NCBI GenBank assembly: GCA_902617025.1
Contig: CACMVB010000002.1
Coordinates: 1 to 64,000, forward strand
Direction of reading: 5' to 3'
Length of the DNA: 64,000 nucleotides
From: an uncultured Pelagibacteraceae bacterium
GTDB lineage: Bacteria; Pseudomonadota; Alphaproteobacteria; Pelagibacterales; Pelagibacteraceae
Both the position numbers and the translations under genes were made by a program. The notes beneath the pieces are model-generated. The model ran no database searches. It worked only from the letters and a program-made list of their open reading frames with translations, and was not told the origin of the DNA. Below, in pieces: positions 1 to 16,863 of this stretch. Position 1 is the stretch's first letter. Each line of letters starts with the position of its first letter.

Positions 1-647
1 TGTGAGTTATTATTATTAATTTCAATTTTAAAAAAAGTATCGGTATTGGGATTTGTATTTATCAGATTTACACCTTCAATAAAATTTTTTGAAATAATTC
101 TTTTTACTTTTAAGTTACATTGTTTAAAAATATTTTTAAGATTCTTTAAATCATTATTATCTATTAAAAAAAAAGATAACTCATGAGTGTAAAAGTTCCC
201 AAACAAACCAATGGGTAAATTTTTAATTTCTTTTTGATCAAGAAAAAACTTAGAATTGAAAATATGAAGCACTGATTTATTTTTTTCTATTTCTCCAATT
301 TTATTTTTGAGGGAGTTAAGTATGTAAATTATATTCTCTTTAACTAGTTGAGACCCATTTAAACGTTTATAACCTGAGAGGGCAATAACAGAGCACTCAA
401 AGTTATCTATCATGATCACTGCCTCTTTGAATGTAAAATTTAATTTTTGTTCTATTAAGTAAATATTCTTTTTAAAGTTATTTACAATTAGATCAAAGTC
501 AAAAATTTTATTGTTACTTATTCCCTCATTTATGATTTTATCTTTGTATAATACTTTAATATCATCATTTTCGATGTTTTCTAGAACAACAAATATTGTT
601 TCAAAATTATTTATTTCAATAAAAAGTTTTGGTGATTTAGTGCCCAT
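1..647 (-). CDS. ftsA: Cell division protein FtsA, partial (runs off left edge), divergent
   Basis: Manual reverse-strand translation starting MGTKSPKLFIEINNFETIFVVLENIEND..., with FtsA-like GYKRLNGSQL and VLHIFNSKFFLDQKEIKNLPIGLFGNF; directly downstream of ftsQ. Confidence 0.7.
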   Translation of the reverse strand, partial: MGTKSPKLFIEINNFETIFVVLENIENDDIKVLYKDKIINEGISNNKIFDFDLIVNNFKKNIYLIEQKLNFTFKEAVIMIDNFECSVIALSGYKRLNGSQLVKENIIYILNSLKNKIGEIEKNKSVLHIFNSKFFLDQKEIKNLPIGLFGNFYTHELSFFLIDNNDLKNLKNIFKQCNLKVKRIISKNFIEGVNLINTNPNTDTFFKIEINNNNS

Positions 648-650
648 TAT

Positions 651-1310
651 TTATTTTAAAATAAGTTGATTATTTATTCTATAATCAAAAATTTCGTATT
701 TTTCGAAATTTTTTTGATTTTTTATGCCTAAAAAATATTTAAGACTTTTTTCATAATTTTGATTAGGTAATTTAATTGTTTTATTATCAACTGTAATTAG
801 ATCCCATCTTTTAGACTCAAAAAAATTAAATTGTTTAATTGTTTCAATTGGAAAATTAATTTTTTTAAGTTGATTATAAAAAATTTTGAAGTTGTTTTTA
901 TCACCGAAAACTATTGGTAAATTTTGATAATTATTTAATTCTACAAAATTAATTAATTTGTCATCATTAGTATAATACTTTTTTTCTTTTTTATTTTGAA
1001 GTATAGCGATTGGTTGCCTCTCATAAATTTTAATCTTTATATTATTTGGGTAGATTTTTTTAAATTCAAAACTTTCAATAAAATCTATTTCTCCGATCTT
1101 TGAATTTATATCCTGTGAGTTAATCGAAAATATATTTGCTTCATACAAAAACGATAGTTTTTTTTTTAAAATTTTTTCATCAATTATTGAGTTATTTTCA
1201 ACTAAAATCTTTTTAATTGTAAATTTTGAATTTAGATTAAGTTTATCTTGAAAACTATAAGTGCTTAGTAACAAAAATAATACTAAAGCGATAAATAAAC
1301 GTTTATTCAT
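651..1310 (-). CDS. ftsQ: Cell division protein FtsQ (POTRA)
   Basis: N-terminal TM followed by FTIKKILVENNSIIDEKIL POTRA-like segment and IKIKIYERQPIAIL; between ddl and ftsA. Confidence 0.8.
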   Translation of the reverse strand: MNKRLFIALVLFLLLSTYSFQDKLNLNSKFTIKKILVENNSIIDEKILKKKLSFLYEANIFSINSQDINSKIGEIDFIESFEFKKIYPNNIKIKIYERQPIAILQNKKEKKYYTNDDKLINFVELNNYQNLPIVFGDKNNFKIFYNQLKKINFPIETIKQFNFFESKRWDLITVDNKTIKLPNQNYEKSLKYFLGIKNQKNFEKYEIFDYRINNQLILK

Positions 1311-9096: not shown

Positions 9097-11853
9097 TTAA
9101 TAACCTTTTATCATTTTTTTGCAAAAATTATTTAAGCCAGTTGCGTTAGATCCTTTAATCATTAAATAATCATTATTAGATATAATATTACTTAAAGTAA
9201 AATCTATATCTTCATCCTGTTGAAAAATATTGCCACGTTTATGTTTGTGTATTTTTTTAAAGGTATCTAACGTTTTGTCGCCTTTAACAAATACTTTATC
9301 TATATCTGAATTGTTAATAACTCTTGATAGTCCTTCATGTAAAATTTTAGATTTTTTTCCTAACTCGAGCATATCTCCAAGTATTAGATATTTTTTAAAT
9401 TTTTCTTTTTTAATAGATTTGAAATTTTTAATTGCAGTTTTTACTGAAAGAGGATTAGCATTATAACTCTCATCGACTAATTTAAATTTTTTACTATACC
9501 TAGAAATAATATGAATTTTCCCTCTCCCTTCAATTGGGTCAACTTTTTTAAAACAATTAGATAATTTCTTTAAATCTAGATTTAATTCTTGAATTAGAGT
9601 TAACGATGCAAGAATATTGTAAATATTAATATTTTTGGTTTTTAGTCTCACATTACTATTTTTTACTTTAATATTTAAGAAATTATGACCTTTTCTTTTT
9701 AAAACTGAGGTAGGATAAACATCTGATTTTTTATTCAAACCAAAAGAAAGAATTTTTAAATTTTTAAATTTTGCTTTTTTTTCTAGAAATCTAAAATATT
9801 TATCATCTCGATTTAAAATTATTGTTCCATTTTTTTCAATATTTTCAATTATTTCTCCTTTTGCTTTAGCAATACCTCTCAAATTTTTAAAGTTTTCAAT
9901 ATGTGCCTCACCTATATTAGTAATAATAGCTATATGAGGCCTGATAAGTTTTGATAATTTATTTATCTCTCCACTTTTACTCATGCCTACTTCAAAAATA
10001 CCATATTTATGATCAACTCTTAACTGTGATAAACTTAATGGAACTCCTAAATAATTATTGTAAGATTTAGGGGAACTTAATGTATCTCCAAAATTTTGTA
10101 ATAATACTCTTAATAAACTTTTTAAAGAAGTTTTTCCTGCGCTACCTGTAATTGCTATTATTTTAGAATTAGTTCTACTCCTTTTCTTATAAGCAAACTT
10201 CTGTAAAAAATTTATTTCATTATCAACTTTAATAATCTTTTTGTTGTACTTTTTGTTTTTTCTGGAAGAAATTATAAATTTCGCGCCTTTTTTTAATGCA
10301 TGAGCCACATATTTATTACCATCATTTTTTTTACCTTTAATTGTGATAAATAAATCATTTTTTTTTACTAATCGGGAGTCTATAGAAAATCCATTAAATT
10401 TTTTAATATCTATATCTTTTTTAATTTCCGCAAGAATTTTTTTATTTTGAACTAAATTTGGATCCTTGTAAAAAAATTTTTTTAATTTTATATTTTTGAT
10501 TATTTTTTTATCTGAAATAAAAATTGTTTTATTTTTATAAATTTGCTCCTCTTCATGACCTTTTCCAGCTACTAAAATTATATCATTAGGGTCTGACTTA
10601 AGTATTGCTTCTTTTATCGCTTTTGCTCTATTACCTACGTTGAAGCAATTATTGCTTTTAATTTTGCCAATTATCTCTTTTCTAATCTTATTTGGATTTT
10701 CACTTCTTGGATTATCATCAGTAACAAAAAAATTTTTACAATACTTTTGTGCTATTTGCCCCATTAAAGGCCTTTTTTCATAATCTCGATCACCTCCACA
10801 CCCAAATACCAGCGAAATATTTTTACTATTATCTTTTAATAAAGCTTTTAATGATTTTTCTAAAGCATCAGGTGTGTGTGCAAAATCAACGTAAATTTTT
10901 CTTTTGCCTGGTAAAATTTTTACTAACTCTAATCTACCATTTACATTTTTAATCTTATTTAAGGTTCTAAAAATTTTTCGCTCTGTCAGTTTACATAATT
11001 TTGCAGCTAAAATTGCCATAGATAAATTTTTAATTTGAAATTCATTTAACTTAAGATTTCTTTTTTTTTTAATTTTTTCTTGGGTTGAGCTTATGTCAAT
11101 TAAACGTAGCTTCTTTTTTTTACAAATATTTTTTAACAAGGAATATTCTTTGAGTGATTTATCTGTTATAACTGTTTTGTTTTTAGACAATATGCTATTG
11201 AAGAGAAAAAGCTTTGCTTTTAAATATGAAAACATTGATTTATGATAATCTAAATGATCTTGACTAAAATTTGTAAAAATACCGGCTTTTATATTTAAAT
11301 TATTTATTCTTTTTTGATGAAGTCCATGACTAGACGCCTCAATGATTACGTTGTTAATTTTTTTTTTTTTTATTTTCTCTAGATTTTTATGCAACGAAAT
11401 AATATCTGGTGAAGTCAGATCAGATTTAATAATTTTTCCTTTTAATTTTATGCCTAATGTTCCAATAGACGCTACAGGAATATTATTCAAATTAAGAATT
11501 TGGTAAAATAGATCAGCAACAGAGGTTTTTCCATTCGTGCCGGTCACTGCAATTATATTATTTGGCTTTAATTTATAAAAAGATGATGTTATTTCACTTA
11601 ATAAGCGCTTTATATTAGAAGTTTTAATTACTAAAATTTTATTATTTATATATTTACATTTTTTTGAGCAAATAACAACTTCGGCACCTTTTGTAACAGC
11701 TTCTTTTATAAACTTTTCACCATTGGATTTATAACCTCTAATGGCAAAAAAAATAAATCCTTTTGAGATATTTTTGCTATTTATTGAAAGGCCTTTAATC
11801 CTCAATTTTTTTTTTTTCTCAGGTAGATTTTTAATTAGTTTTTTCAGTAACAT
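9097..11853 (-). CDS. murE-murF: Fused MurE (UDP-MurNAc-tripeptide synthetase)-MurF (UDP-MurNAc-pentapeptide synthetase)
   Basis: One uninterrupted 918-aa ORF with two Mur-ligase cores: VTGTNGKTSVADLF ... DNPRSENP (MurE) and ITGSAGKTSLKSLL ... DESYNANPLSVKTA (MurF). Confidence 0.93.
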   Translation of the reverse strand: MLLKKLIKNLPEKKKKLRIKGLSINSKNISKGFIFFAIRGYKSNGEKFIKEAVTKGAEVVICSKKCKYINNKILVIKTSNIKRLLSEITSSFYKLKPNNIIAVTGTNGKTSVADLFYQILNLNNIPVASIGTLGIKLKGKIIKSDLTSPDIISLHKNLEKIKKKKINNVIIEASSHGLHQKRINNLNIKAGIFTNFSQDHLDYHKSMFSYLKAKLFLFNSILSKNKTVITDKSLKEYSLLKNICKKKKLRLIDISSTQEKIKKKRNLKLNEFQIKNLSMAILAAKLCKLTERKIFRTLNKIKNVNGRLELVKILPGKRKIYVDFAHTPDALEKSLKALLKDNSKNISLVFGCGGDRDYEKRPLMGQIAQKYCKNFFVTDDNPRSENPNKIRKEIIGKIKSNNCFNVGNRAKAIKEAILKSDPNDIILVAGKGHEEEQIYKNKTIFISDKKIIKNIKLKKFFYKDPNLVQNKKILAEIKKDIDIKKFNGFSIDSRLVKKNDLFITIKGKKNDGNKYVAHALKKGAKFIISSRKNKKYNKKIIKVDNEINFLQKFAYKKRSRTNSKIIAITGSAGKTSLKSLLRVLLQNFGDTLSSPKSYNNYLGVPLSLSQLRVDHKYGIFEVGMSKSGEINKLSKLIRPHIAIITNIGEAHIENFKNLRGIAKAKGEIIENIEKNGTIILNRDDKYFRFLEKKAKFKNLKILSFGLNKKSDVYPTSVLKRKGHNFLNIKVKNSNVRLKTKNINIYNILASLTLIQELNLDLKKLSNCFKKVDPIEGRGKIHIISRYSKKFKLVDESYNANPLSVKTAIKNFKSIKKEKFKKYLILGDMLELGKKSKILHEGLSRVINNSDIDKVFVKGDKTLDTFKKIHKHKRGNIFQQDEDIDFTLSNIISNNDYLMIKGSNATGLNNFCKKMIKGY

Positions 11854-14887: not shown

Positions 14888-16402
14888 TTAAAACTTTTGT
14901 CTTCTTAAAAAAGCAGGTATTTCAAAATCCTCGTCCTCATCATTATCTTGGTCAAACAATTCGGTAGAGTTAGTGTCAGTTATATTGTCTTTACTTTCGA
15001 GGTTCTCTTGTGAATGATCTTCTGCAAACAGTTTTGGTGTATTCTCCTCTTGCGTATTTTCTTTAAAATAATCCCCATATATTTTATTGGTATTCTCGAG
15101 TTTCATTTCAGGATTGTTTTCCATATAGGATGCACTTTCAATTGATACACCGGAAGGAATTTCATTTGTTAAACTTTGGTTTTTCAGTGACTCTTCTTGG
15201 GCAATTTTGATTTCTTCTTTACTTTCAAAACTATCTATAAGAGCGTTTTGCTCGTCGCTATTTTTTATTTCTAAACTTTCATCTAGTTTTAACGCTGTGG
15301 CACCGTCAATTGAGCTTGTGATATTATTATCAATGCTTTTAGCATTAAACAAAGTGTCTCCTTGACTAGGTCCACTATTAAAAAGCGAACTTTTACTGTT
15401 TGATGTGTTTACTAAGTTTAGATAAGGCTTTGAACCTGAGCCGTGAAGTGCAGTAGCTACTATAGAGACTCTTATCTTACCATTCATATTTTCATCTTTA
15501 ATTGCTCCAAAAATCAATTCTGCCTCTGGATCAACTTCTGCTCTAATTTTATTAACTGCCGCATCAACTTCGAAAAGTTTTATATCGCTTCCACCAGTAA
15601 TGTTCACTAGTAAACCTTTAGCTCCTTGTAATGTATATTCATCAATTAAAGGATTATTTAAAGCTAATTCAGTTGCAGACATAGCTCGATTTTCTCCATC
15701 AGCTTCGCCAGTTCCCATCATAGCTTTACCGCTTGAACTCATTACAGTCTCGACATCTGCAAAATCTAAATTTATCATTCCAGGTCTAACCATTAGGTCT
15801 GTAATACTTTGCACACCATGCTTTAAAACATCATTTGACAAATTAAAAGACTCTTCGAAACCAGTTGCCTCATTAGCAATTTTAAATAAATTTTGATTTG
15901 GCACCACAATCGTTGTGTCTAAATATTTTTTAAGCTCTTCGAGCCCTGCTACTGCTCTTCGCATTCGTTTAGGTCCCTCATAAGAAAAAGGTAGCGTGGT
16001 TACACCTACAGTGAGAATATTCATTTCTCTAGCAGCTCTAGCAATTACATGAGATGCTCCAGTACCTGTCCCACCTCCCATGCCCGAAGCAATAAAAACC
16101 ATATTGCTTCCTTGAATATAGTTTACTATTTCATTAATTGACTCATCAGCAGCAGCCTGACCAATATCATGTTTAGCTCCAGCACCTAATCCTTTAGTTA
16201 AATTCATTCCTATTTGTATTTTAGCATCTGCCTTGCTCATCTTTAAATCTTGTGCATCAGTGTTTACTGCAACGAATTCCACTCCTTGCATGCCAGCTTC
16301 TATCATCGCATTAATTGCGTTACCGCCTGCTCCGCCAACACCAATTACTAATATTCTTGGTTTCAATTCTCTCAGTTCGCCACCTCCAACATTTATACTC
16401 AT
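14888..16402 (-). CDS. ftsZ: Cell division protein FtsZ
   Basis: VIGVGGAGGNAINAMI, SGMGGGTGTGASHVIA, C-terminal peptide DFEIPAFLRRQKF. Confidence 0.97.
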   Translation of the reverse strand: MSINVGGGELRELKPRILVIGVGGAGGNAINAMIEAGMQGVEFVAVNTDAQDLKMSKADAKIQIGMNLTKGLGAGAKHDIGQAAADESINEIVNYIQGSNMVFIASGMGGGTGTGASHVIARAAREMNILTVGVTTLPFSYEGPKRMRRAVAGLEELKKYLDTTIVVPNQNLFKIANEATGFEESFNLSNDVLKHGVQSITDLMVRPGMINLDFADVETVMSSSGKAMMGTGEADGENRAMSATELALNNPLIDEYTLQGAKGLLVNITGGSDIKLFEVDAAVNKIRAEVDPEAELIFGAIKDENMNGKIRVSIVATALHGSGSKPYLNLVNTSNSKSSLFNSGPSQGDTLFNAKSIDNNITSSIDGATALKLDESLEIKNSDEQNALIDSFESKEEIKIAQEESLKNQSLTNEIPSGVSIESASYMENNPEMKLENTNKIYGDYFKENTQEENTPKLFAEDHSQENLESKDNITDTNSTELFDQDNDEDEDFEIPAFLRRQKF

Positions 16403-16416
16403 GACATCTCCCCTTT

Positions 16417-16863
16417 CTATTTATTTTCCCACTTTAAATTAGACCTGTTTTGAAAAGCTTTTTTTCTAGCAAATGATTTAAATTTTTCAAAATTTTTAGG
16501 TTCCCATATTTGGAATGTTTTACCGAGCCCAACAAATAAAATGTTATTTTTAATTTTAGCATGACCAAGTAATTTTTCAGATATCGAAACTCTTCCTTCG
16601 GTATCAAATTGCAAACTTTCACTTTCAGATAAAACCGAAGTAGCAAAATAATCTCTTTTTTCTTCAAAAGGATTTAAAGAGTCGATTGTATTAGATAATC
16701 TTTCAATCCTCTCTTGCGAACAAGCCTCTAGCGCAGAATGATTAAAAGAAGGATAACTAATAAATCCATTGTAACCTAATGAGTTTAAATAAGATCTAAA
16801 AGTTGCTGGCACAGAAACCCGACCTTTCTTGTCTATTTTGTTTTCGAAATTCGATAAAAACAT
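16417..16863 (-). CDS. mraZ: Transcriptional regulator MraZ
   Basis: FLSNFENKIDKKGRVSVPATFR; first gene of the dcw cluster. Confidence 0.95.
   Translation of the reverse strand: MFLSNFENKIDKKGRVSVPATFRSYLNSLGYNGFISYPSFNHSALEACSQERIERLSNTIDSLNPFEEKRDYFATSVLSESESLQFDTEGRVSISEKLLGHAKIKNNILFVGLGKTFQIWEPKNFEKFKSFARKKAFQNRSNLKWENK

Follow-up and report, generated by a model that had tools for sequence, protein, structure and literature searches.

The stretch of DNA analysed here (the window) comprises 64,000 nucleotides from base 1 of contig C2 (G000:C2:1-64000) of an uncultured Pelagibacteraceae genome, which has been assembled to 1.04 Mb in 16 contigs and is 98.8% complete. Its left edge carries the beginning of ftsA, the gene of a normally ATP-binding relative of actin (Table 1). 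A first-pass annotation, made from the sequence alone, had read this frame as a partial FtsA whose two phosphate-binding loops were destroyed, and its coordinates and quoted peptides are all correct. The family assignment stands as well, as residues 14-188 match the NCBIfam FtsA model TIGR01174 (E=1e-15). The Pfam SHS2_FTSA match of the window protein is weak (E=0.0024), and this domain is matched in 57 of the 78 relatives. One detail has to be amended: the stretches GYKRLNGSQL and VLHIFNSKFFLD, described as FtsA-like 1C and 2A sequence, are indeed FtsA-like, but both lie in subdomain IC and neither in 2A. The window half-protein reaches 57.7 bits with TIGR01174, below the curated cut-off of 175.85, as are the scores of two full-length relatives from the same genus (94.2 and 121.8 bits).

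Table 1. Features of the window that bear on FtsA and its partners (window coordinates).
Feature	Position	Strand	Basis and remarks
ftsA, N-terminal 215 residues	3..647	-	TIGR01174 match; last 88 residues at G000:C4:3-266
ftsQ	651..1310	-	directly upstream of ftsA; Pfam POTRA_1 and FtsQ_DivIB_C; syntenic in relatives
Core of subdomain IC (SHS2), residues 117-151, conserved	195..299	-	Pfam, invariant columns
Former phosphate-1 loop, residues 11-16, EINNFE (canonical D-x-G-S/T-x-K)	600..617	-	alignment; beta-hairpin in the L036 model
Former phosphate-2 hairpin, residues 205-215, FFKIEINNNNS (canonical iDxGGGTT)	3..35	-	alignment; hairpin E204-210/E215-221 in the model
ftsZ, 510 aa, intact C-terminal FtsA-binding peptide DFEIPAFLRRQKF	14891..16420	-	

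With a profile of the relatives, the missing end of the gene (positions 309-396 of 398) was found at the start of contig C4, where lpxC comes after it. Given the N-terminal half on C2 and the C-terminal piece on C4, ftsA is whole in nature, except for an assembly gap of about 93 codons (some 280 bases between C2 and C4); a biological truncation was considered and rejected, the gene being cut by a contig end and its C-terminal piece opening contig C4. The order ftsQ-ftsA, the position of the gene in the dcw cluster, recurs in nearly all the loci examined, and the window gene is a true ftsA by descent and position (ftsQ-ftsA-lpxC). The ftsZ gene lies about 15 kb upstream of ftsA, heading the dcw cluster and not between ftsA and lpxC, with a similar spacing across the sampled Pelagibacteraceae. 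Between the two, a single 918-aa frame (9097-11853, minus strand) resembles, when read by eye, a MurE-MurF fusion.

An ftsA match is held by 45 of the 61 genomes of the window's genus (g1), the window's own included, many of the genomes being partial. Where the whole locus is available, the open frame counts 375-405 aa in nearly all genomes, and mostly 396-405. A scan of public genomes gave 80 loci, all from Pelagibacteraceae, Pelagibacterales or Candidatus Pelagibacter, which places the group in SAR11. One of these loci belongs to strain HIMB058, which we take to be a member of SAR11 subclade II. To compare the nucleotide pocket, we aligned the genus with 50 alphaproteobacterial FtsA, of which 30 are high-scoring canonical proteins, and tabulated the motifs over 82 other proteins of g1.

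The two phosphate loops are lost, as had been claimed. In this alignment, the canonical LD.G..K of phosphate-1 falls on LFIEIN in g1, and on LFIEINNFE in the window protein. The glycine of this loop is replaced in at least 80 of the 82 proteins (by N in 64, D in 9, S in 6, and Y in 1), and the lysine is mostly N or E. Since E. coli FtsA itself has a glutamate (E14) at the phosphate-1 acid, the exchange of D for E at this position is no damage (PMC10213515). At phosphate-2, the canonical iDmGgGtT gives way to xIxInxxxS, with iDmGgGtTs aligned on KIEINNNNS in the window protein. The aspartate persists in about 2 of 78 proteins, being otherwise K, E, Q, or N; the GGG is lost, a glycine occurring at its first position only, in 12/82; and the Ser/Thr is kept in 75/82. 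The GG of the adenosine motif TGG is kept in none of the 82 relatives, on which this motif was judged (in the window genome, this region lies before, or across, the beginning of the C4 fragment). The full-length relatives contain no intact DxG or DxGGGT at any position. As read from these alignments, the real damage is the loss of the phosphate-1 loop glycine and lysine, of DxGGGT, and of the adenosine GG.

The extent of this loss can be expressed as the retention of 11 pocket positions, compared with 87 other positions, conserved in at least 90% of canonical FtsA. Retention at the pocket amounts to 98.5% in canonical proteins, 62% in the long form of genus g4, 18% in g2, and 11% in g1, versus 97%, 29%, 30%, and 21%, respectively, at the other positions. 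The pocket has thus turned from the best-kept to the worst-kept part of FtsA in g1 and g2. At the former pocket positions, the residues are free mixtures of N, K, E, D, and S, and conservation is lower than in the remainder of the protein.

No second ftsA was found in the source genome, in which the whole-genome TIGR01174 search returned, apart from the ftsA locus, just two frames, of 353 and 646 aa. Both frames were considered as a canonical ftsA and rejected, the shorter being MreB (E=6e-140) and the longer DnaK (E=5e-278). The gene is single-copy.

What surrounds the pocket is better preserved. An AlphaFold2 model of a relative (locus L036 of AG-912-P19, 78-row alignment) gives a confident FtsA fold (pLDDT 86.1, pTM 0.82), whose leading 19 PDB matches are FtsA throughout (E as low as 8.8e-25), with PilM appearing from rank 20. 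The IC domain is kept in the genus. At the expected motif sites, the model has beta-hairpins (residues 5-24 and 204-221) and a beta-alpha unit (320-342), so that the predicted hairpins stand where the nucleotide loops should be. In subdomain IIB, R296, E299, and the D of a DISK motif are invariant in all 82 g1 proteins; for the window genome, the IIB residues are deduced from these relatives, because residues ~216-308 are missing from its assembly. R296 and E299 align with R301 and E304 of Thermotoga maritima FtsA, in the ..HARLREI.. helix, two residues which contact the FtsZ tail in PDB 4A2A. The C-terminal peptide of FtsZ predicted to bind FtsA (EDFEIPAFLRRQKF) is intact in every SAR11 genus examined, as EIPAFLRRQ or a close variant (RKQ in g2 and g3, EIPSFLRRQ in f2, the second family of the order). 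For the C-terminal helix of FtsA in the window genome, KKSIIARIFELF, the hydrophobic moment is 0.66, with a genus median of 0.68; random internal stretches have 0.48, and 6% of them attain the genus median. F392 is invariant in the relatives. The helix is called amphipathic from its sequence and hydrophobic moment only. Together with the invariant FtsZ-contact residues, its conservation supports the annotation's reading of the protein as a probable membrane tether that no longer binds ATP, a reading against which neither the full-length alignment nor the search for another ftsA has spoken.

The loss is graded across SAR11. The loci downstream of ftsQ were compared throughout the order. DIGSxK-like and DFGxxKT motifs persist in g5, g7, and g9. 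Genera g3 and g8 have lost part of phosphate-1 (ELGN, EIGN) but retain most of phosphate-2 and of the adenosine motif, and all three nucleotide motifs are lost in g2 and g1. In a tree of FtsZ, g1 and g2 are united in a single clade (support 100/99), and their nearest neighbours, with weak support, are g3 and g8. The family f2 displays a partial erosion of its own (DIRADK, DIQKNKT). Pocket loss is a character of a clade (g1 plus its sister genus g2), not a quirk of one genome, and it belongs to a broader reduction of FtsA across SAR11.

Genus g4 illustrates another form of reduction. In somewhat under half of the members sampled, FtsA has a long form that retains the pocket. In the remaining members, a halved FtsA of 222-245 aa directly follows ftsQ; IIA and IIB are removed, and IA-IC is joined straight to the C-terminal tail and amphipathic helix. 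All the aligned short forms share one breakpoint, and the long forms nest among the short ones in the FtsZ tree. The halved form may have had a single origin, followed by a transfer that brought back the long form, or several origins. Halved-form loci are L225, L229, L230, L211-L218, L224, L226, and L231. At locus L227 (G100), the frame after ftsQ is open for just 175 aa and begins about 160 bases late, and is possibly a frameshifted or further-shortened halved FtsA.

The most probable explanation is that the g1 protein, by descent a true FtsA, acts as a nucleotide-independent pseudo-actin adaptor between the membrane and FtsZ. Based on the alignments and the model, we infer that it no longer binds ATP, and that it would combine FtsZ binding and membrane binding with constitutive assembly. 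Domain IIB, with its R296/E299 helix, would still hold the conserved FtsZ C-terminal peptide, the C-terminal amphipathic helix would hold the membrane, and the IA-IC half would be free to contact later division proteins. In Vibrio FtsA, the IA-IC cleft binds FtsN (PMC7613929). Whether it governed polymerisation or release from the membrane, the ATP-dependent switch would be lost, or replaced by constitutive protein-only interactions. In E. coli, the phosphate-loop mutants FtsA(E14R) and FtsA(D210A) fail to complement (PMC10213515), so that a working ATP-less SAR11 FtsA must have compensating changes. With somewhat less assurance than the adaptor role in g1, SAR11 appears to have given up ATP-driven FtsA at least twice, by loop erosion in g1 and g2, and by excision of domain II in many g4 members.

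A different reading, which we consider unlikely, is that FtsA still binds ATP or another ligand via a pocket rebuilt outside the actin motifs. The model does retain both hairpins and, at the adenosine motif, the beta-alpha unit, polar residues rich in N, D, and E line the old cleft with the conserved S/T of phosphate-2, and an Asn at a glycine position can sometimes take the same backbone, which leaves room for weak or atypical nucleotide binding. Nevertheless, a new site should be conserved, whereas the positions of the former pocket drift, and the protein lacks the glycines that phosphate contact requires. More improbable still is an error of alignment or assembly, with intact motifs elsewhere in the protein or a canonical ftsA missed, which would be very surprising. 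The contig edge does cut the window gene, but both halves were located in the genome, the same motif losses recur in an uninterrupted gene on about 78 single-cell and metagenome contigs, and the whole-genome profile search gives, besides ftsA, only MreB and DnaK.

Finally, ftsA could be a decaying pseudogene or a dispensable relic, with another tether having taken over division. The many g4 members without domain II, FtsZ-binding IIB included, lend this idea some weight, as FtsA is clearly being reduced in SAR11. It nonetheless appears quite improbable for g1, where the frames remain open over their usual length in nearly all genomes with the whole locus, and where an alignment of 78 relatives has a mean column identity of 58% and 19 invariant residues. 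Among the closest pairs, dN is 0.02-0.15, dS 0.13-1.4, and dN/dS mostly 0.1-0.35, well below 1, so FtsA is under purifying selection. As for a replacement, neither SepF nor ZipA was found in 15 SAR11 genomes, and FtsA thus remains the expected tether. SPOR/FtsN-like candidates gave weak matches only.

Compared with the FtsA of E. coli, Vibrio maritimus, and T. maritima (7Q6D, 7Q6F, and 1E4F/4A2A/4A2B), the g1 protein has the same IA-IC-IIA-IIB fold, the R/E helix of IIB, the amphipathic helix, and the dcw site by ftsQ, but it is devoid of the phosphate-1, phosphate-2, and adenosine motifs and, unlike these canonical proteins, scores below the TIGR01174 cut-off. The FtsA of g5, g7, g9, and the long form of g4 are orthologous to it, at the same locus and with the same C-terminal helix, although they have D-x-G at phosphate-1, mostly D/E-x-G at phosphate-2, and the first adenosine G. 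The halved g4 protein is also an orthologue at the same locus, with the IC domain, the amphipathic helix, and the loss of phosphate-1 in common with g1, but its IIA and IIB are wholly deleted and the FtsZ-tail site is gone too. PilM (5EOU, 2YCH), an adaptor on a membrane-protein tail, has an FtsA-like fold with an IC domain; it differs in binding ATP and is a poorer fold match.

No prior report of nucleotide-site loss in SAR11 FtsA was found in the open-licence literature searched. E. coli FtsA depends on residues of its nucleotide site for function (PMC10213515), and current models of divisome activation give FtsA filaments a central place (PMC7613929). The present data suggest that a large branch of SAR11 divides without an ATP-switched FtsA. 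If this is true, abundant SAR11 cells, which are among the most numerous on Earth, run their FtsZ ring with a nucleotide-free FtsA or a half-FtsA, the latter of which could act through the IC domain and membrane helix alone. A natural, selected FtsA without a pocket, along with a lineage without domain II, would reveal which parts of FtsA are dispensable, and the purpose of its ATP would become testable by comparing orthologues, for which the stepwise series inside one order constitutes a set of ready-made intermediates.

Weak-scoring FtsA with partly eroded nucleotide motifs were also observed in other alphaproteobacterial families, at loci L285 (G229; e.g., SIGDIRT and NIDATTT) and L287 (G190). 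At L284, in a 0.9 Mb genome (G208), a 597-aa frame joins an FtsA-like N-terminal part to what appears, by eye, to be an in-frame ribulose-phosphate 3-epimerase domain.
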